Assembly (NCBI GenBank): GCA_937120535.1
Contig: CAKZJX010000031.1
Coordinates: 1-62,452, forward strand
Source of the DNA: an uncultured Anaerolineae bacterium
GTDB lineage: Bacteria; Chloroflexota; Anaerolineae; Anaerolineales; Villigracilaceae
Direction of reading: 5' to 3'
DNA length: 62,452 bases
This document shows positions 53,304 through 62,452 of the stretch, in pieces. Within the stretch, counting starts at the first letter, position 1; every line of letters starts with the position of its first letter. The notes under the pieces are model-generated. The model had not been told where the DNA came from and did not search any database. It was given only the letters and a program-made list of their open reading frames with translations. The translations under genes and the position numbers were made by a program.

Positions 53304-54344
53304 CTAGTAAACCAAGTCCTTCTTCTCTACAGTGATCCGCTTACGGAACATGTAATAGGTCCATGCCTGATAGGCCAGCACAATCGGCACGAAGATCAGG
53401 GCAATGATCGTCATGGCCGTTAGGGTGTACTGGGACGAGGAGGCGTTGTAGATGGTCAGGTTCCATGCTGGCTTCAGGCTAGAGATCATTACCCGCGGGA
53501 ACATCAGCATGAAGAAGGACACCTGAGTCAAGACGATGTAGGCCGAGACAGCGGCAAAGGCCCGTCCTTCGCGACGCTGGTTGATGAAGTAAATGGAAGA
53601 GACCAACGCTACCACAGAAAGGATGGGGATGATGCCCGGGTTGACGCCGATCTTGGTCAGGACGTCGGTGTAGACATAGGTACCGATGGTAAGCAAGATT
53701 ACTGCAACCAAGGCAATCCAGTAGAGCTTCTTGGAGAGAGCATGAGCACGTTCACGTAGCTCGCCATCTAATTTGAGGGTCAAGAAATTGGCGCCGTGCA
53801 GCAGGAAGACCGCCACCGTGGCCAATCCGCCGATCAAGCCGTAGGGGTTAAGCAGGCTGATAGTGGTTACCAAGCCGTTCGGGCTGACATAGTTCATGTT
53901 GGCATCAATCGGAACGCCTTTGGCCAGGTTGGCAAACGCTGTGCCGAGCAACAGGGCCGCCAGGAAGGAACCGATGGCGATCATCCAATCGAAGCGATTG
54001 CGCCATTTCGGATCGGGGCTTTTCGAGCGATACTCGAACGAAACGCCGCGCAGGATCAGACCCACCAGCAGGAGGAAGAGGGGCAGGTAGAAGCCACTGA
54101 ACATGGTGGCGTACCAGTGGGGGAAGGCGGCAAAGGTTGCCCCGCCGGCCGTCAGCAACCATACCTCGTTCCCATCCCAAAATGTGCCGATGGTGTTGAT
54201 GATCGCCCGACGCTCCTCATCCTTTTTACCGAGGAAGGGCAGGAGCATACCCACCCCGAAGTCAAAGCCCTCAAGGAAGTAGAAGCCAATCCACAGAATG
54301 GCGATCAGGATGAACCACAAGGTTTGGAGAAATTCATAGGACAT
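53304..54344 (-). CDS. cydB: Cytochrome bd ubiquinol/menaquinol oxidase subunit II
   Basis: 346 residues, about nine transmembrane helices. Start LQTLWFILIAILWIGFYFLEGFDFGVGMLLPFL is the CydB signature, followed by FWDGNEVWLLTAGGATFAAFP. It forms the heterodimer with CydA that reduces O2 to water. The stop is followed by an SQR-like gene; the ATG is 14 bases after the cydA stop, with GGAGGC upstream. Confidence 0.93.
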   Translation of the reverse strand: MSYEFLQTLWFILIAILWIGFYFLEGFDFGVGMLLPFLGKKDEERRAIINTIGTFWDGNEVWLLTAGGATFAAFPHWYATMFSGFYLPLFLLLVGLILRGVSFEYRSKSPDPKWRNRFDWMIAIGSFLAALLLGTAFANLAKGVPIDANMNYVSPNGLVTTISLLNPYGLIGGLATVAVFLLHGANFLTLKLDGELRERAHALSKKLYWIALVAVILLTIGTYVYTDVLTKIGVNPGIIPILSVVALVSSIYFINQRREGRAFAAVSAYIVLTQVSFFMLMFPRVMISSLKPAWNLTIYNASSSQYTLTAMTIIALIFVPIVLAYQAWTYYMFRKRITVEKKDLVY

Positions 54345-54358
54345 GGTGAGCCTCCATA

Positions 54359-55747
54359 TTAGTCATCTGCCCCAACCGGGGAGAGCGCGACGTCCACCGA
54401 TTCATGCATGGCGGCTTCTGGGCCGGCCAGAGCGTATTTCTTCATCAGTCGGAACATGATCACGGCCAACGAACCGTACACCAAGGTGTAGCCGATCAGC
54501 GAGATCCAGAGATCGGCCACCGTCAGGTTGGGCGAGATGGCGTCTTCCACCTTGAGCAAACCATACACCACCCAGGGCTGGCGCCCCATTTCGGTCAGGA
54601 TCCAACCGCTCATGCCGGCCAAGTAGGGCATCGCCACCGCCCAGGGCAACCACTTGAAGCCCGGCCGGTTCTCATATCCCTCACGGCGCATTGCAAGCAG
54701 AATCCAGGCAGAGACTCCCATCATGATGAAACCAAACACCATCATGATGCGGAACGTCCAGTAGGTGACCACCATCAACGGGATGTAATTGCCGGGCCCA
54801 TACTGAGCTTCATACTGAGCCTGCAGCTCGTTGACTCCTTTCACCTCGCAGTCAAAGTTGTTGCAGGCCAAGAAGCTCATCAGGTAGGGAATGCGGATTG
54901 ACCACACCTCGCGCCGGCCGCTGAGGTCGCCGATGGTGAGCAACGAGAAGGAGGCCGGCTGTTCGGTCTCCCAGATGGCCTCCAGGGCAGCCAACTTCAT
55001 GGGCTGCTGTTCATACATCAACTGACCCATCGTATGCCCACCCAGGAAGACGATGATGCTGGCGATCAGCCCCACCCAAGCGCCGATGCGCAGCGAGCGG
55101 CGGAAAAAGTCCACATTCTGCTTGCGCAGCAGATGATAGGCGCTCACGCTGATGATCAGGAAGGCGGCAGTCACCAACCCGACGGCCAGCGTATGCCAGA
55201 TGAAGGTCCAGGCTTTTGAGTTACCGATCAGAGCAAAGAAATCCACCAATTCAGCGCGACCGGTTGCCTCGTTGAGCACATACCCCACCGGATGCTGCAT
55301 CCAGCCGTTGGCAATCAGAATCCAGATCGCCGAGAGGTTGGAGCCGATAGCCACCAGCCAGATCGAAGCCAGATGTACCTTTTCAGGGATACGCCCTTCC
55401 CCGAAAATCCACACCCCTAGGAAGGTAGACTCCATGAAGAAGGCCAGCAGCGCTTCGATGGCCAGCGGTGCACCGAAAATGTCACCCACGTATCGCGAAT
55501 AGCCCGACCAGTTCATGCCGAACTGAAACTCCATCACGATACCGGTGACCACGCCCATGGCGAAGTTGATCAGCAACAACTTTCCCCAAAACTTCGCCAT
55601 CTTGCGCCAGGTCTCATCCCGCGTTTGGTAGTAGCGAGTCTGCATATAGGCCACAAACCAGCCCATGCCTAGGGTGAGCGGGACAAAGAGCCAGTGATAG
55701 ATGCTAGTGAGAGCAAATTGCCATTGAGATAGAAGGGTTGGGTTCAT
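54359..55747 (-). CDS. cydA: Cytochrome bd oxidase subunit I
   Basis: 462 residues, nine transmembrane helices. Haem-ligand histidine in ALTSIYHWLFVPLTLG (His near residue 18), a second in the LIWHTLAVGL region (about 183), and the conserved MGRQPWVVYG. The Q-loop is of the short type. It contains haems b558, b595 and d and oxidises quinol. ATG at 55747 has AAGGAG 6 bases upstream; the GTG two codons earlier is less likely. It starts 45 bases after the Rrf2 gene stop, so it probably belongs to the same transcript. Confidence 0.94.
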   Translation of the reverse strand: MNPTLLSQWQFALTSIYHWLFVPLTLGMGWFVAYMQTRYYQTRDETWRKMAKFWGKLLLINFAMGVVTGIVMEFQFGMNWSGYSRYVGDIFGAPLAIEALLAFFMESTFLGVWIFGEGRIPEKVHLASIWLVAIGSNLSAIWILIANGWMQHPVGYVLNEATGRAELVDFFALIGNSKAWTFIWHTLAVGLVTAAFLIISVSAYHLLRKQNVDFFRRSLRIGAWVGLIASIIVFLGGHTMGQLMYEQQPMKLAALEAIWETEQPASFSLLTIGDLSGRREVWSIRIPYLMSFLACNNFDCEVKGVNELQAQYEAQYGPGNYIPLMVVTYWTFRIMMVFGFIMMGVSAWILLAMRREGYENRPGFKWLPWAVAMPYLAGMSGWILTEMGRQPWVVYGLLKVEDAISPNLTVADLWISLIGYTLVYGSLAVIMFRLMKKYALAGPEAAMHESVDVALSPVGADD

Positions 55748-55792
55748 ATGCACTCCTTATTGGGAAGAGGTTGAAACGAATGAAAGCCGAAA

Positions 55793-56224
55793 TTATGCAG
55801 GATGAGGAACGGTTGCATCCTTTGTTAAGTCCTCAAACGTAATTGACGCTAGTTCGCGCATCATCGCTATCTGGGCGCGCATCCATTTAGGACGCACCGG
55901 ACATTCAGCGCGAAAAGGGCAGTCATCTTCGCCGTGCGATTCCATACACTCCGAAAGCTGGATCGGCCCTTCAAAGGCTTGGACGACATCCCACAGGCTG
56001 ATCTTATTGGGCGGACGGGAAAGTTCCAGCCCACCCTCGCGCCCAGGAAAAGTGCGAATCAAACCGACCAGAGCTAATTGAGCCACAATCCGTGCTAGGA
56101 ATGCCTTAGGGATCAACATTTGACGTTGAATTTCGCCGGAAGATAACCGTGTGCCGATGGGTTGCCTGGCTAAAGCCAAGATCACGCGCACTGCATAGTC
56201 GGTTTGGCGATTAATTTGGAGCAT
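55793..56224 (-). CDS. Rrf2-family transcriptional regulator with Cys-rich cluster site
   Basis: 143 residues. Winged helix at about 1-60 with the typical LQINRQTDYAVRVILALA start and a recognition helix MLIPKAFLARIVAQL. Three cysteines C93, C102 and C108 (C-x8-C-x5-C) match the Fe-S ligands of NsrR/IscR-like members. It would sense NO or redox state through an Fe-S cluster. It is the first gene of the cydA-cydB unit and is probably autoregulatory; a palindrome ATTAC-N7-GTAAT lies about 40 bases upstream. Confidence 0.85.
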   Translation of the reverse strand: MLQINRQTDYAVRVILALARQPIGTRLSSGEIQRQMLIPKAFLARIVAQLALVGLIRTFPGREGGLELSRPPNKISLWDVVQAFEGPIQLSECMESHGEDDCPFRAECPVRPKWMRAQIAMMRELASITFEDLTKDATVPHPA

Positions 56225-56260
56225 TTTCTATCTCTATTACCTTTATTACATCAGTAAACG

Positions 56261-56277
56261 ATTACTTTCATTGTAAT
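56261..56277. promoter_or_regulatory. Candidate Rrf2 operator
   Basis: ATTAC-N7-GTAAT, a 5-bp perfect dyad with 7-base spacer, about 37 bases upstream of the Rrf2 ATG. A second dyad TGACA-N2-TGTCA lies at 56300-56311. Confidence 0.4.
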
Positions 56278-56380
56278 GATTTTGTGTAAGAGAAGCATAT
56301 GACATGTGTCACATTTTGCTTATCAAAACGTCATAACCTTGCTCAGGCTGGGACGGCCCTCTGGCTTTTTTACGACCGAG

Positions 56381-56442
56381 ACCGCAGAGGAGACAGAGTC
56401 CTTTTTGATGGGTATCTCTGCGCTCTCTGCGCTCTCGGCGGT
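56381..56442. repeat. Dispersed intergenic repeat of the ACCGCAGAG/CTCTGCG type
   Basis: ACCGCAGAGGAGACAGAG (56381-56398) is followed by a near inverted copy with tandem CTCTGCG units and CTCGGCGGT (56416-56442). Sequences of this kind occur in many copies between genes of environmental bacteria (general knowledge). It is the reason for spurious open frames on both strands here. Confidence 0.5.
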
Positions 56443-56525
56443 TGACTCTTGCAAGGGGCTCACACAAGCAAAGCCCTTGGCCCATTTCGCAGCCAGACCG
56501 TCAGAAACCTCGATCTTTGTGGTAG

Positions 56526-56531
56526 TATAAT
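56526..56531 (+). promoter_or_regulatory. -10 box (TATAAT) for the lipoprotein gene at 56631
   Basis: TATAAT with a leader of about 90 bases before GGAGG and the ATG. No good -35. Confidence 0.45.
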
Positions 56532-56630
56532 CGCGGCATTGCCCATTGTGCGGAAATTCCGGAACCCGATCGAGATCGCCATCGTCTCTTGAGTAACACT
56601 CGAATCCCACGTCTACCGAGGAGGCTTATG

Positions 56631-57251
56631 ATGCGCATCCTTTCCTTGATCCTACTCGCTTCGTTTGCGCTGGCCGCTTGTCAACCGTTCCCATCGCCAC
56701 CTACCCCTACCCAGGGGCCAGATATAGCCGCAACCCAGACCCAAATCGGCACATCTGTTGCCCAAACGCTCACCGCCGTTTTCGAGACCCAGGTAGCGGC
56801 ATACACGCCAACGCCCGAAGACACCCCCACCCCAATTCCCACGGCTACCTTGACCCCCTTCCCTACCTTCACCCCTTTCCCCACAGCTACTCCGTATCGC
56901 CCGCCGGCTGTCACTCCGACTATCCCACGCCCTTACGCCTGCCTCGTCATAAACAAATCGCCGGCTGACAACACCGTCTTCAACAAGAACGCCGACTTCG
57001 ACATCAAATTCTGGCTGAAAAACGTGGGCACCAAAAAGTGGGATGACGGCATTGACCTGCTCTATGATAGCGGCACAAACTTCCTCACCAATCCGAATTT
57101 TCGTTACGAATTGCCTGAAGTCGACCCTGGAGAGACGGTCGGGCCGTTTGTCTTCGACGCCAAGGCTCCGAACAAAGCCGGCACCTACACCATGACGTTC
57201 AAACTACAAGGTGGCTTCTGCCAACCATACATCCGAATCGAAGTCAAGTGA
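56631..57251 (+). CDS. Lipoprotein with NBR1-type Ig-like domain
   Basis: 206 residues. Signal with lipobox ALAAC (Cys near 15); a helical stalk DIAATQTQIGTSVAQTLTAV similar to the stalk of the lipoprotein at 32469; a TPTP/TPFPTFTPF linker (about 58-100); an Ig-like domain (about 105-206) with KFWLKNVGTKKWDDG and a FCQPYIRIEV ending. It is the third paralogue in the window. I start at the second ATG (56631), 5-6 bases after GGAGG; the ATG at 56628 is only 2-3 bases away. Its stop codon is directly followed by a MITE-like element. Confidence 0.75.
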   Translation: MRILSLILLASFALAACQPFPSPPTPTQGPDIAATQTQIGTSVAQTLTAVFETQVAAYTPTPEDTPTPIPTATLTPFPTFTPFPTATPYRPPAVTPTIPRPYACLVINKSPADNTVFNKNADFDIKFWLKNVGTKKWDDGIDLLYDSGTNFLTNPNFRYELPEVDPGETVGPFVFDAKAPNKAGTYTMTFKLQGGFCQPYIRIEVK

Positions 57252-57253
57252 GG

Positions 57254-57421
57254 CTGGGCTTGTTCAATAAGTCTCTTTGGATGGTACGAACTGTCTCTAG
57301 AAGAGCCACAAGCAGGCTGTTTGACCCTTGAATCAGCGGCTGATTCCATCGCTGATCCCCTCCTATGCCTGCTCCACTGGGCTCTCCTTTCGCACCAAGG
57401 GTACTTGTTGAACAAGCCCAG
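57254..57421. mobile_element. MITE-like inverted-repeat element, 168 bases
   Basis: Perfect 14-bp terminal inverted repeats CTGGGCTTGTTCAA (57254-57267) and TTGAACAAGCCCAG (57408-57421), continuing as an imperfect match to about 27 bases. Inside, AGAGCC...AGCAGGC (57302-57317) pairs with GCCTGCT...GGGCTCT (57367-57385), and AATCAGC-G-GCTGATT sits at the centre (57331-57345). The whole element can fold into one long hairpin. It has no open reading frame. The left end begins 2 bases after the lipoprotein stop; a target duplication is not clear (TGA may flank). Confidence 0.6.
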
Positions 57422-57461
57422 TGAAATTTGATCGCTCTATCTCACCCCAAGGAGCTTTTCT

Positions 57462-59267
57462 ATGTCTACCCTTCCCCATTGGGATATGAGCAACGTATAT
57501 CCGTCCCTTGAATCCAAAGCGTTCAAGGCAGCCACAAAGAAATATACCGCTCTGCTCGATGAACTTGAATCATCCTTGGACCAACTTGTTCGAAAAGCCA
57601 GCTCCAAGACATCCCCCAAACGCCTCGGTCAATTTATCGGAGAGACCGTTGACCGCTTCAACGAGATCTACGAGCTGGGTGGCACCTTGAACGCTTACGT
57701 GTACGCCTTTGTCACCACCGATTCGCGCGATCGGCTAGCCATGCGCACCCTGTCCCAACTCGAACAAATACAAGTGCGACAGCACATACTGGGCACGCGC
57801 TTTCAGGCTTGGCTAGGCAAGCTCGGCAAGACTACCTTGAAAAAGGCGATCCCGTTTCATCCATCAGCCCAATCGCACGCCTTCATCCTTCAGGAGATGG
57901 CAGAGCAAGCTCAATACCTGATGAGCGAAGCCGAAGAGTCGCTGGCTGCCGCGCTGACCTTGAGCGGTGGAAACGCCTTTGGCAAACTGCAAGGAACCGT
58001 TACCTCGCAACTCACGGTCGAGTTTGAGCTAGAGGGTCAGGTGAAGAAACTGCCCATGCCGGCCCTGATCAACCTCCGTTCTCACCCCGACGAATCCGTC
58101 CGCCATCGCGCCTACGAAGCCGAAAACCAAGTCTGGGAATCCGTCAAAGAAATCTTGGCAGCCTGTCTGAACGGCGTCAAGGGCGAGACCATCACCCTCA
58201 ACCGCCGTCGTGGTCGAGAAGATGCCCTTCATTCAGCGCTCGACGCCGCCCGTATTGACCGTCAGACGCTGGACGTCATGTTGCGGGCCATGCGCGAGTC
58301 CTTCCCCACATTCCGCCGCTACTTTCACAGCAAAGCCCAAAAACTCGCTAAAGAAAAACTGGCCTGGTGGGACCTATTCGCCCCCACCGGCAAGGTCGAC
58401 AAGGTGTACTCCTTTGAGGAAGCACGGGACCTGATCTTGGAAACCTTTGGTTCATTCTCCTCCGATCTGCGAGACATGGCTCAAACGGCCTTCGACCGCC
58501 GCTGGATTGACGCCGAACAGCGCGAAGGCAAGCGCGGCGGTGCGTTTTGCATGGACGTTCCAGCGGTCAAAGAGAGCCGCATCCTCGCCAATTACGACGG
58601 TTCGTTTGAACAGGTGAGCACCCTGGCTCACGAGCTTGGCCACGCCTACCACAATCACTGTGCCCATCAGGCCGGCAAGACCGAGATGCAACAGTTCACG
58701 CCGATGACCCTGGCCGAGACCGCCTCCATCCTCTGCGAAACCATCGTCACCGAAGCCTTGCTGGCTCGAGCCAGCGATCCAAAGGAACAGCTAGCCATCC
58801 TGGAATTGCAGCTGATCAATGCCTCCCAGGTGATCGTGGATATTTACTCCCGCTTCCTCTTTGAAAAAGAAGTCTTCGAGCGTCGCGAGAAGGCAGAACT
58901 CTCGGCCGATGAATTCTGCGAGATCATGGAACGCGCTCAGAAGGCCACCTACGGCGACGGACTCGACGAGCGCTACCTGCAGAAATTCATGTGGACCTGG
59001 AAGCCGCACTACTACGAACCGCGTCTCTCCTTCTACAATTTCCCCTACGCTTTTGGCCTGCTCTTCGGACTTGGCCTGTATGCCATCTACCAACAACGAG
59101 GTTCGGCATTCATCCCAGAATACAAAAACTTGTTGGCCTCCACGGGCGAGGCTTCGGCGGCCGATCTGGCCGCTCGGTTTGGGATCGACATTCGCAAGAA
59201 GAAATTCTGGAAAGACAGCTTGACCATCATCGGCCGTCAAATTGACCGCTACTGCGAACTTTCTTAG
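57462..59267 (+). CDS. pepF: M3-family oligoendopeptidase (PepF-like)
   Basis: 601 residues, the usual PepF length. Zinc-binding motif HELGH at residues 390-394 with the downstream glutamate in the TLAETASILCETIV helix. The N-terminal helical half and the C-terminal FYNFPYAFGLLFGLGLYAIY are family-typical. It hydrolyses short peptides in the cytoplasm. AAGGAG precedes the ATG at 57462. It is the first of a plus-strand group with the rhodanese and cupin genes. Confidence 0.92.
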   Translation: MSTLPHWDMSNVYPSLESKAFKAATKKYTALLDELESSLDQLVRKASSKTSPKRLGQFIGETVDRFNEIYELGGTLNAYVYAFVTTDSRDRLAMRTLSQLEQIQVRQHILGTRFQAWLGKLGKTTLKKAIPFHPSAQSHAFILQEMAEQAQYLMSEAEESLAAALTLSGGNAFGKLQGTVTSQLTVEFELEGQVKKLPMPALINLRSHPDESVRHRAYEAENQVWESVKEILAACLNGVKGETITLNRRRGREDALHSALDAARIDRQTLDVMLRAMRESFPTFRRYFHSKAQKLAKEKLAWWDLFAPTGKVDKVYSFEEARDLILETFGSFSSDLRDMAQTAFDRRWIDAEQREGKRGGAFCMDVPAVKESRILANYDGSFEQVSTLAHELGHAYHNHCAHQAGKTEMQQFTPMTLAETASILCETIVTEALLARASDPKEQLAILELQLINASQVIVDIYSRFLFEKEVFERREKAELSADEFCEIMERAQKATYGDGLDERYLQKFMWTWKPHYYEPRLSFYNFPYAFGLLFGLGLYAIYQQRGSAFIPEYKNLLASTGEASAADLAARFGIDIRKKKFWKDSLTIIGRQIDRYCELS

Positions 59268-59278
59268 AGGTTAGCCTG

Positions 59279-59740
59279 ATGACAAGACGAACCACCCTGC
59301 TCCTGTTCCTTGCCTTGACGATCGGATTGACAGCCTGTGCACCGACGGCGTCTTCCCCTACGGCGTCGCCAGCGCCGGCTCAACCATCCGCTTCAGCTTT
59401 GCCGCGCAGCGAAGCTGAGATCCCGCGGGTGAGTGTAGAAGAAGCCAAAGCCGCCCTCGATGCCGGCCTGGCCATCTTGGTAGATGTGCGCAGCGCCGAC
59501 GCCTTTGCGGCCGGCCACCTCCCCGGTGCCAAATCCATCCCCCTCTCAGAAATCGAACGAGATCCCAGCAGCGTCCCCCTAAGCCGAAATCGCTGGATCA
59601 TCACTTACTGTGCTTGACCCGATGAACGATTGAGCGCCCGTGCGGCGTTCCTCCTGCTCCAACATGGGTTTGTCAAAGTGACCCCGATGCTCGGCGGCCT
59701 CTGGGCCTGGCTGGATGCCGGATACCCAATCGAACGCTGA
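59279..59740 (+). CDS. Rhodanese-domain lipoprotein with in-frame TGA (candidate selenoprotein)
   Basis: 153 residues if TGA at 59615-59617 is read through. Lipoprotein signal with lipobox LTAC (Cys 20), a Pro/Ser/Ala linker, then a rhodanese domain (about 50-150). The frame reads IITYCA-TGA-PDERLSARAAF and continues through LLQHGFVKVTPMLGG and LWAWLDAGYPIE to a second TGA at 59738. Relatives have YC(A/S)CPxE at this place, so the TGA replaces Cys 113, two residues after the catalytic C111. A 7-bp hairpin with G in position 2 of its loop follows 15 bases later. Either it encodes selenocysteine, or it is a fresh nonsense mutation that would leave a 112-residue protein. GAGGTT precedes the ATG. 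Confidence 0.7.
59632..59650 (+). promoter_or_regulatory. SECIS-like hairpin after the in-frame TGA
   Basis: GAGCGCC (59632-59638) pairs with GGCGTTC (59644-59650), one G-U pair, with a 5-base loop CGTGC. The loop begins 22 bases after the last base of the TGA and has G as second base. This falls within the rules used for bacterial SECIS elements (short upper stem, small apical loop, G in the first two loop bases, 16-37 bases from the TGA). Confidence 0.45.
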
Positions 59741-59748
59741 AAAAAGCC

Positions 59749-60069
59749 ATGGAACCTCGTGTTACCCCCTGGGATCAACCCACCCCTCCCACCGAAGCCG
59801 ATCTGCGCCACCGTTTTTCCCAAGAAGGCCTATCTTACCTGGCCTGGTCAAACGGGCCTTATGACACCTACCCCCCTCATTGGCACGAGTATCACAAGGT
59901 GATTTACGTGTTGCAAGGGTCAATCACCTTCCAAGTACCTGAGCTAGGACAAGAGTACACCCTAAAAGCCGGCGACCGGCTCGACCTGCCGGCCGGCACC
60001 CTGCACGCTGCCGAAGTAGGCCCACAGGGCGTGGTTTGTCTAGAGGCCCATAAACTGGCGCAAGGCTAA
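59749..60069 (+). CDS. Cupin-domain protein
   Basis: 106 residues, one cupin. Motif 1 HWHEYHKVIYVLQGSITF with metal-ligand His and Glu, motif 2 DRLDLPAGTLHAAEVG. Small cupins bind metal and may be enzymes or sensors; no substrate can be told. It starts 8 bases after the second stop of the rhodanese frame, in the same direction. Its stop overlaps the end of the convergent histidine kinase gene by 4 bases. Confidence 0.82.
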   Translation: MEPRVTPWDQPTPPTEADLRHRFSQEGLSYLAWSNGPYDTYPPHWHEYHKVIYVLQGSITFQVPELGQEYTLKAGDRLDLPAGTLHAAEVGPQGVVCLEAHKLAQG

Positions 60070-62369
60070 GTCTGCTTCGGTTGAACAACCCCAAACTCCC
60101 AGCGAACAGCGCTGCCCATCGGCTGCGTCTTTCCATCCCCCTGCCGGCTAAGAGGCAACAAGACGTGGAACTGGCTGCCCGGCAAACGTTCCTCGTCGTA
60201 TCCCTCACTTTCTACCCAAATGCGCCCACCGTGCGCCTCCACGATACCTTTGGACAAGGCCAAGCCTAGCCCGATTCCCCCGCCTTTGAAGCGACTCTTG
60301 CTTGTAGAGTGCCGATCCAGATCGCCCGGTTGATAAAACTTGGTGAAAATCAGATCGCGAAAATCGGGATCCACGCCCACACCGGTATCGTTCACAACGA
60401 TCTCCACGCCGCCGTCCGGTAGATCGTTGCGATTGGGCGGAACCAGCCGGCCGGTGATTTCAATCCGTCCCCCGTTTGGGGTGAACTTGATGGCGTTGTT
60501 CACCAAATGCAGAAAAACCTTGTACAAAATGTTCGGATCGGCCCGGATCAACGGCAGAGCAGGGACATCAACAATGAGGGCCAGTTGTCGGTCGGCCAGA
60601 AGCTTTCTCAAGTCCAAGCAGGCATTGCGCACCAGCAGCGCCGTATCCACCGGCTGCAAATATAGCTGCAGCGCGCGCGCGTCGATCTGAGCGAGGTCAA
60701 ACATCGAATCCATGATCTCATGCAGGCGCAAGGTGCTCTTATGAAGGGCGGCGATCATCGGTTTCAAACTTTCATCCAGACTCGGATGTTCTGAGAGCAT
60801 CTCGATATAGCCGCGCATCACCGTGAGCGGCGTACGCAACTCATGCGAAGCAATCGAAATAAAATCGCTCTTGGTTCGATCCAACTGTTCCAGGTCACGA
60901 TTGGCCTTATCCAAATCTCGGTACGCCTGCGTCAATCGCTGGTTAAGCTTCACCAGATGGTCCACCAAGCGAGCGTTCTCCAGCGCTACCGCCGTCTGAT
61001 TGGCTAGAGCGGCGACGGTGACCAGATCATCTTCACTGAAGCGCTGCCCTGAGAGCTTTGCGCCCAGCGCCAACAACCCAATCCAGCGACGATTAGCGAA
61101 GATCGGTGCGTAGACCTCAGCGTCCAAACGGCTGAACCATTGGCGCTCCTGGAAACCCACTTCTTGGAACTTAGGCAGCAAATCCAAATCGAATTGCAAC
61201 AACAGTTTCTGCTCACGCGCTAGGTGAACGGCAATCGGGTGGTCCTCGGCTAGGACAAGTGGAGGGATAGAGCGCTCCTGCTCTGAGCGAACTGCGCGCA
61301 AGCGATAGGCGCGACGACCATCGGGCATGGTTTCCGTGTCCACCAAGAAGAGAAAACCACGCCGCAGTTCCATCTCCTCTAAAATCAGGCCCATGGCCAC
61401 GTTAGCCAAGCGTTGAACATCCAGGATGTTGCTGATCGACTCGCTATACTGACGCAACATTCGGCCGGCGTCGGTGATCTGAATATCCAACAGATCGTCC
61501 ACCACGCGCTGCACTACCCCCAACATCGGGGTGAAGAGCATGGCCAACAAAATCGCAGTCATAGCACCGGTGATCAAAGGATTGTAATTTGGCAAAGCTC
61601 GAAAGAGCGGTTGAACCCCCAGCGTACTAATCAAGTAGAAAATCACGATCAACGAAGTTGTAACGACATAGATCAAGATGCGGCGCAATAGCAAGCGTGA
61701 ATCGGGCAAATGATGGTTCAACGTCACATAGGCTATCAATGCAGCGCCCGCTAAGCGCAGTGGTGCTCCGACCACCGGCAAATAAGCAAACAAGAGCAGA
61801 TCGTTAACGCTTATCAGGATCGCAATCGGAATCCAATACGAAATCCGATTGCGATGAGATGGTTGACGCAGATAGTGCTGTGCAGTAAGAAAATGAACGA
61901 TTGTCCCCGCCATGAAGATGAGCCATCCCAACAGGCTCCATCCCAATGTCAGACCCTCGCGCGGCAGCATCACCCGACCGTTGGTCCAAATCACCTCCGG
62001 CAAGGGCAACACGTCCAAGGTCAAGATCGCCAGGATCAACGCCCAAGACGCGCCCACCCACAGCCAAAGCCACCCCTCCAAACGCAAAAAAGCGCGCACG
62101 ATCAAAATCAACAAGAATGACAGGAAAAACGCACCGAAGGTTTGGACGGCGACAAAATCGCTTACCCCCATACGTGGGATCACATCGCCGCGCCAAAGCG
62201 CTTCCACTCCCTGCAACAGCATGGCTGCTGCCAGATAAACAACGATCAACCACGCCGCCAGCTCCTGATCGCTACGGCGACGGATGGCCCACACCAACAG
62301 TGCAACATACAACGCAACGCCAACGAGCGTACCCAAGAAAGCCAAAAACTGTGGCGTAAAAGCGGGCAT
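60066..62369 (-). CDS. Sensor histidine kinase, 7TM-GAF-HisKA-HATPase
   Basis: 767 residues. About eight hydrophobic segments in residues 8-290 (a 7TM-type sensor input), GAF domain (about 310-465), short coiled coil, HisKA with the phospho-acceptor H509 in SHELRTPLTV, and an HATPase domain with N-box NNAIKF, G1 VNDTGVGVDP and G2 GGIGLGLALSKGIVEAHGG. It autophosphorylates and would signal to a response regulator that is not in the window. ATG at 62369 has AAGGTGAG upstream, which lies within or next to the probable end of the transposase element at the right edge. Confidence 0.88.
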   Translation of the reverse strand: MPAFTPQFLAFLGTLVGVALYVALLVWAIRRRSDQELAAWLIVVYLAAAMLLQGVEALWRGDVIPRMGVSDFVAVQTFGAFFLSFLLILIVRAFLRLEGWLWLWVGASWALILAILTLDVLPLPEVIWTNGRVMLPREGLTLGWSLLGWLIFMAGTIVHFLTAQHYLRQPSHRNRISYWIPIAILISVNDLLLFAYLPVVGAPLRLAGAALIAYVTLNHHLPDSRLLLRRILIYVVTTSLIVIFYLISTLGVQPLFRALPNYNPLITGAMTAILLAMLFTPMLGVVQRVVDDLLDIQITDAGRMLRQYSESISNILDVQRLANVAMGLILEEMELRRGFLFLVDTETMPDGRRAYRLRAVRSEQERSIPPLVLAEDHPIAVHLAREQKLLLQFDLDLLPKFQEVGFQERQWFSRLDAEVYAPIFANRRWIGLLALGAKLSGQRFSEDDLVTVAALANQTAVALENARLVDHLVKLNQRLTQAYRDLDKANRDLEQLDRTKSDFISIASHELRTPLTVMRGYIEMLSEHPSLDESLKPMIAALHKSTLRLHEIMDSMFDLAQIDARALQLYLQPVDTALLVRNACLDLRKLLADRQLALIVDVPALPLIRADPNILYKVFLHLVNNAIKFTPNGGRIEITGRLVPPNRNDLPDGGVEIVVNDTGVGVDPDFRDLIFTKFYQPGDLDRHSTSKSRFKGGGIGLGLALSKGIVEAHGGRIWVESEGYDEERLPGSQFHVLLPLSRQGDGKTQPMGSAVRWEFGVVQPKQT

Positions 62370-62409
62370 CTTAAGAACTCACCTTACGCAGTTGGAGTAA
62401 ACTTGGTGC

Positions 62410-62452
62410 ATGAAAAACGGCAAACTCTTTGACCTGTACAGCGATTATCTGA
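62410..62452 (+). mobile_element. Probable start of an IS4/IS701-type transposase gene, cut by the window edge
   Basis: ATG at 62410 opens a frame MKNGKLFDLYSDYL that runs off the end. The KLFDLYxDYL opening is typical of IS701-like transposases I know from Chloroflexi and cyanobacteria. Only 14 codons are present, so this is tentative. The ~40 bases before it (ACTCACCTTACGCAGTTGG...) may be the element's terminal region. Confidence 0.4.

Follow-up and report, generated by a model that had tools for sequence, protein, structure and literature searches.

The features of the locus are listed in Table 1, with positions given for the window, that is, the whole stretch of 62,452 nucleotides of Anaerolineae DNA that was analysed. 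At its centre is a rhodanese gene that begins with the ATG at 59279, is interrupted by one in-frame TGA and ends at 59738-59740 with a further TGA; the next ATG is at 59749. The context of the internal codon is IITYCA-TGA-PDERLSARAA: Cys111 precedes it, and residue 113, the proposed selenocysteine (Sec), is the third residue of the loop. PF00581 is the sole Pfam domain in the 153-aa read-through protein and spans the TGA (residues 52-146; E 3.1e-14, 53.7 bits against a cut-off of 22.2); an N-terminal DedA/VTT domain is absent. Judging from the lipobox, which was read by eye, the product is very probably exported and anchored to lipid.

Table 1. Features of the rhodanese locus and its immediate neighbours.
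Feature	Position	Strand	Basis
M3-family oligoendopeptidase	57462..59267	+	ends 11 bases upstream of the rhodanese; Pfam PF01432, 1.5e-31
Rhodanese lipoprotein gene (probable) with a single in-frame TGA	59279..59740	+	153 aa on read-through; Pfam PF00581 and predicted fold
Cys20 of lipobox-like LTAC	59336..59338	+	by eye
Cys111, rhodanese nucleophile position	59609..59611	+	invariant in alignment A1; the loop Cys of 3tp9 falls at the same aligned position
Proposed Sec codon TGA (residue 113)	59615..59617	+	shared by all 21 top matches in the 41-genome search; three homologues of Cys type have Cys here
Probable SECIS hairpin; stem of 7 bp, loop CGUGC (59639-59643)	59632..59650	+	near-frozen codons and covariation
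Cupin	59749..60069	+	8 bases downstream of the rhodanese; Pfam PF07883, 4.4e-10

The initial annotation had described a single in-frame TGA at 59615 read as YCA-TGA-PDE, a rhodanese pattern persisting past it and a gene end 8 bases before the next gene. All three descriptions are accurate; frame and pattern are maintained throughout alignment A1 (which leaves out L014, where stretches of N occur, and L055 and L056, which are almost identical; alignment A4 consists of 39 of 77 usable loci plus the window protein). It had also held that truncation to 112 residues would cost the protein its active half, which is true only in part. The standard open reading frame is indeed 112 aa long, stopping at the 59615-59617 TGA, and lacks both Sec and the domain's second half, but Cys111 is retained at the nucleophile position because it stands before the TGA.

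Across 151 loci (141 distinct), a peptidase of the M3 cluster lies upstream of the rhodanese in 26 (23 distinct) and a cupin downstream in 12 (11 distinct); in seven of the 151 a glyoxalase-superfamily protein is found between the M3 peptidase and cupin neighbours. In one paralogue group the following gene encodes a second rhodanese-like lipoprotein (11 loci, 8 distinct), and the surroundings of the L056 paralogue include a PCuAC copper chaperone, a DUF305 protein, a cupredoxin and a DtxR-type regulator with a FeoA domain. The neighbouring genes point to no clear functional lead. Four loci from genomes placed in three genera (L054, L055, L056 and L063, in G023, G001, G014 and G146) share a stretch of 3.4-4.4 kb that bears a Sec-rhodanese paralogue, at 98.7 to 100% identity, reflecting either recent transfer or mis-binned contigs. 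Elsewhere in the window are a gene for a lipoprotein-like product that contains an Ig-like domain of the NBR1 type (56589-57251; PF16158, 1.2e-09) and, on the minus strand (53304-56224), an Rrf2-type regulator gene followed by the genes for both subunits (I and II) of cytochrome bd oxidase.

A search of 41 genomes (the genome of origin plus 40) returned an in-frame TGA in every one of the 21 best matches, which come from 13 genomes. The TGA falls at the same codon throughout: 20 matches read WII[TP]YC[AT]-TGA and the 21st (G020) LIITYCT-TGA, and when the closest relatives were checked at residue 113, as had been suggested at the outset, neither TGC nor TGT was found at that codon in any of the 21. 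One of these matches (G011) is additionally listed with a TAA. Below the 21 there is a drop in match quality, from E 1e-27 to 1.9e-15, and TGA is then absent except in G025, a much weaker match (E 1.3e-8) whose two TGA codons both lie outside the active-site loop.

Three Cys-type homologues were read from plasmid records, with the loops YCACPNE, YCSCPNE and YCDCPAE; in all three Cys occupies the place of the TGA, just where the initial annotation had expected it. Two are annotated as DedA/VTT-domain proteins and the third is without annotation. A tblastn search of plasmids with the window protein gave 142 records, none spanning 80% of the query, and the exact Cys version of the lineage peptide, WII[TP]YCTC, matched four stretches in the species collection, none of them a relative. 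A related group of exported rhodaneses from one family of the phylum, f36 (L098, L099, L104, L106, L108, L126 and L128-L130), carries a YGDA, YGDS or similar loop with neither Cys nor Sec and with no TGA; these proteins are perhaps binding-only.

The genome of origin (3.11 Mb in 140 contigs, 98% complete) was checked for the Sec machinery and holds selA (561 bits), selB (357 bits, above the cut-off), selD (357 bits) and a tRNA-Sec (75.5 bits against a cut-off of 47), for which ARAGORN gives the anticodon TCA. The selD gene (L047, C42:60685-61617) itself carries an active-site TGA, in the context SCAG-TGA. Within the 41-genome set selA is present in all 13 TGA carriers and tRNA-Sec above the cut-off in 11, the best hits in the other two (G007 and G008) being tRNA-Ser. 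Because many of the 28 non-carriers also have these genes (selA in 20, tRNA-Sec in 18), the contrast is not significant for tRNA-Sec alone (p 0.28) and weak for selA (p 0.04). A hand tally of a phylum sample of 400 genomes gave selA in 45 of 47 carriers among the matches listed and in 277 of 353 others (p 0.003), a contrast that is only indicative since the 353 include further TGA carriers, at least G091, G108, G119, G127, G137, G155 and G190, all with selA. The selA gene is missing from carriers G303 and G361 and from G067 (L118), a carrier not counted among the 47; all three, as well as G007 and G008, are draft assemblies.

In bacteria, SECIS elements follow a rule of distance from the UGA and of loop. 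The hairpin downstream of the TGA (GAGCGCC-CGTGC-GGCGTTC) begins 14 bases after that codon, which we take to be a SECIS-like distance. As judged from sequence comparison, the evidence for this putative element is conservation and covariation, not energy. Codon usage was compared among 18 distinct sequences (20 less two exact duplicates; G020, outside the motif, was read separately). The codons at +6 to +10 after the TGA are AGC GCC CGT GCG GCG, with a single exception (GCA). The other invariant residues with synonymous codons (Ile, Ile, Tyr, Cys and Glu) use two codons each, two of them deviating once in 18; near-uniform codons elsewhere by the TGA are ATC at -6 and GAA at +3 (each 17 of 18) and ACC at -1 (17 of 17 Thr).

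Covariation was assessed in 64 sequences from the phylum, found by protein profile and taken from 68 distinct motif-positive sequences. L110, L115, L116 and L119, which have another Cys-Sec spacing and hairpin, were left out, and L118 (VCTUHHE) is absent because the motif required Tyr or Phe before the Cys. All five inner pairs are formed in 61 of the 64, whereas 2000 draws from a codon-preserving null averaged 3.1 such sequences and never exceeded 9; the two outer pairs are formed in just 42 and 37. Two-sided changes occur in all seven pairs, each in at least one sequence, and compensated inner stems include GCGTC/GACGC (L093), GCGCT/AGCGT (L083) and CAGCC/GGCTG (L078). The covariation score was equalled by none of 500 shuffles, and versions of the stem slid along the alignment fall far behind in the number of cells paired. 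The folding energy of the window hairpin is ordinary (z -0.65; equalled or bettered by 48 of 200 shuffles), the lowest-energy fold of 59610-59670 is a different one, and a search of 54000-62452 against Rfam gave no match at E up to 1. The hairpin proposed by the initial annotation is conserved and covarying across the phylum, although its energy is unremarkable.

A DNA pattern combining the CxU loop and the hairpin matched at least 119 stretches in contigs. An HMM identifies all 80 loci analysed as rhodaneses, the weakest at E 8.6e-8; they come from Chloroflexi, Acidobacteria, Deltaproteobacteria, Nitrospiraceae, Rokuibacteriota, Gemmatimonadetes and other taxa; because the hairpin itself had selected them, they were kept out of the covariation counts. 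Viral contigs yielded no match to the DNA pattern for loop and hairpin.

These data bear directly on how the TGA is read. That it arose by nonsense mutation, or by an error of sequencing, in what is otherwise an ordinary rhodanese gene can be rejected as practically without likelihood: TGA does serve as a regular stop codon in this genome, and ends the rhodanese gene itself, but the same-codon conservation, the frame and rhodanese pattern kept after it, the near-frozen codons and the covarying hairpin all speak against such a reading. It is also very improbable that the UGA is recoded as Cys or Trp by a different tRNA with a UCA anticodon, giving in effect a plain Cys-x-Cys rhodanese. The Cys found in homologues at the place of residue 113 would suit this idea, but the TCA-anticodon tRNA found is tRNA-Sec, selA, selB and selD are present, and a strongly constrained hairpin stands at SECIS-like distance. 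Given the machinery, the TGA shared by 13 genomes, the frozen and covarying hairpin and the Cys homologues, the UGA at 59615 is almost certainly decoded as Sec, and the Cys-x-Sec loop put forward by the initial annotation has all four lines of evidence in its favour. SelB and charged tRNA-Sec would read the codon under the guidance of the hairpin; failing insertion, the product would be a 112-residue fragment.

The AlphaFold2 model of the protein is a rhodanese (pLDDT 95-98 in the domain and 95 in the loop block), with Cys111 placed after the strand formed by residues 106-110. Its closest fold match is 3tp9 (Z 18.3, 1.5 A over 105 residues), and persulfide reductases and fusions of persulfide dioxygenase with rhodanese are among its fold neighbours. 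Sec is a residue capable of resolving chemistry. In the mechanism we propose, Cys111 would take up sulfane sulfur or an oxidant from the substrate; Sec113 would then attack Cys111 to give a selenenylsulfide (Cys-Se bond), afterwards reduced by a partner thiol. We are inclined to view the protein as a thiol/persulfide oxidoreductase outside the membrane, with Cys111 as the loaded and Sec113 as the resolving residue, a role that is probable rather than firm.

A selenoprotein working as a sulfurtransferase, which carries sulfur via a Cys111 persulfide and is not a redox enzyme, is a weaker but serious competitor to which we assign perhaps one chance in three. The rhodanese fold, the invariant Cys at the nucleophile position in alignment A1, the persulfide-handling fusions and reductases among the fold neighbours and the second rhodanese-like lipoprotein that follows one paralogue group all agree with it. 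The classical rhodanese loop, however, is of the CxxGxR/S type, whereas the loop here is C-x-U-P-x-E; moreover, Cys111 is itself Sec in 8 of 137 rows of the tree, a replacement that would fit redox tuning and hence the oxidoreductase.

In these eight rows (L085, L086, L093, L101, L102, L105, L141 and L210) the loop takes the form UxU: TGA stands at the position of the catalytic Cys as well as at that of Sec113, with one sense codon between, and one conserved hairpin lies downstream. Among the eight, L210 is on an Anaerolineales chromosome and L141 on a Chloroflexaceae contig. The distribution of UxU on the tree needs five changes, at least two of them forced by well-supported branches, with 68 of the 134 inner branches unresolved and changes counted without direction, so that gain and loss are indistinguishable. 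The G155:C3 match likewise shows two TGA codons (by count only). A second kind of TGA-containing rhodanese is present in L110, L115 (G116) and L116 (G124): here the arrangement is C-x4-U (YCTGATUG and similar) and the hairpin GCGGCC-CGTG..-GGCCGC.

The term UxU is absent from the accessible portions of PMC13188914, PMC12013277 and PMC9312934, and a literature search for a UxU rhodanese came back empty, which is a weak negative. Both the count of UxU forms and their novelty are provisional, because the tree is poorly resolved and literature coverage partial; on this provisional footing, Sec-x-Sec rhodaneses are less familiar than the CxU kind and were not found in print. A more far-reaching reading, which we offer as speculative and consider rather unlikely to hold in full, is that the Chloroflexota possess a large family of exported Sec-rhodaneses, for the most part lacking annotation, whose catalytic Cys would repeatedly have given way to a second Sec (a diselenide-capable UxU) with one hairpin decoding both UGA codons, and which would constitute a Sec-specialised extracytoplasmic redox system, not a set of sulfurtransferases.

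Two practical consequences concern annotation: standard frame calling cuts the window rhodanese short, so that Sec and half of its domain are lost, and NF041203, the NCBI model now available, reaches its cut-off in none of the 201 Chloroflexota genomes tested. Beyond annotation, the series CxC, CxU and UxU, together with a strongly conserved and covarying SECIS, lends itself to finding out what a rhodanese loop gains from Sec, and the UxU forms raise the question of whether two neighbouring UGA codons can be decoded by a single bacterial SECIS.

Among known systems, GlpE-type single-domain rhodaneses share the fold (E. coli GlpE, 1gmx: Z 16.1, 2.4 A over 105 residues) but have another loop, without Sec, and the window protein scores 32.4 bits against a PRK00162 cut-off of 102. 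The fusions of a DedA family protein and a thiosulfate sulfurtransferase have the same loop, YC(A/S/D)CP(N/A)E; they differ in bearing Cys for Sec and, in two of the three read, the N-terminal DedA/VTT domain that the window protein lacks. TsoB (NF045694), in the portion of PMC13188914 available a rhodanese/DsbD fusion-like selenoprotein with the motif UxxxxU, is likewise a rhodanese-containing selenoprotein, whose model is matched by every one of the 18 A1 members at E up to 1 (best 3.3e-09). TsoB is, however, a fusion with two Sec residues at another spacing, whereas the window protein is CxU and scores 19.3 bits against a cut-off of 805. The spacing of the C-x4-U rhodaneses is reminiscent of the UxxxxU so listed for TsoB.

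The nearest relative is NF041203 (rhodanese_LYCAU), the top NCBIfam hit of the window protein, matched by 18 of 18 members of A1. Both combine a rhodanese domain with a Cys-x-Sec loop, YCA-TGA in the window protein, which differs in starting with a lipobox or membrane anchor (by eye) and in scoring 62.4 bits against a curated cut-off of 115. Being the best hit, with CxU, yet below threshold, it is like and kin to this family while falling outside its formal limit. The cut-off is passed by two of ten other query proteins, L144 (116.5) and L185 (163.5). At E up to 1e-15 the 201 genomes contain 31 matches to NF041203, 29 of them with TGA (L269 is one of the two without), the window gene itself lying above that E-value. 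A literature search on selenoproteins with Chloroflexota or Anaerolineae gave nothing pertinent among the matches listed, and the word rhodanese was not found in the accessible part of PMC12013277. Rhodanese form 3 (NF041203), CxU, is listed as a selenoprotein in the available portion of a 2026 review (PMC13188914), where it is credited to Zhang and Gladyshev 2005, and the CxU form appears also in the part available of a 2022 review (PMC9312934). CxU rhodanese selenoproteins are thus already described, and the window protein belongs to this known kind.
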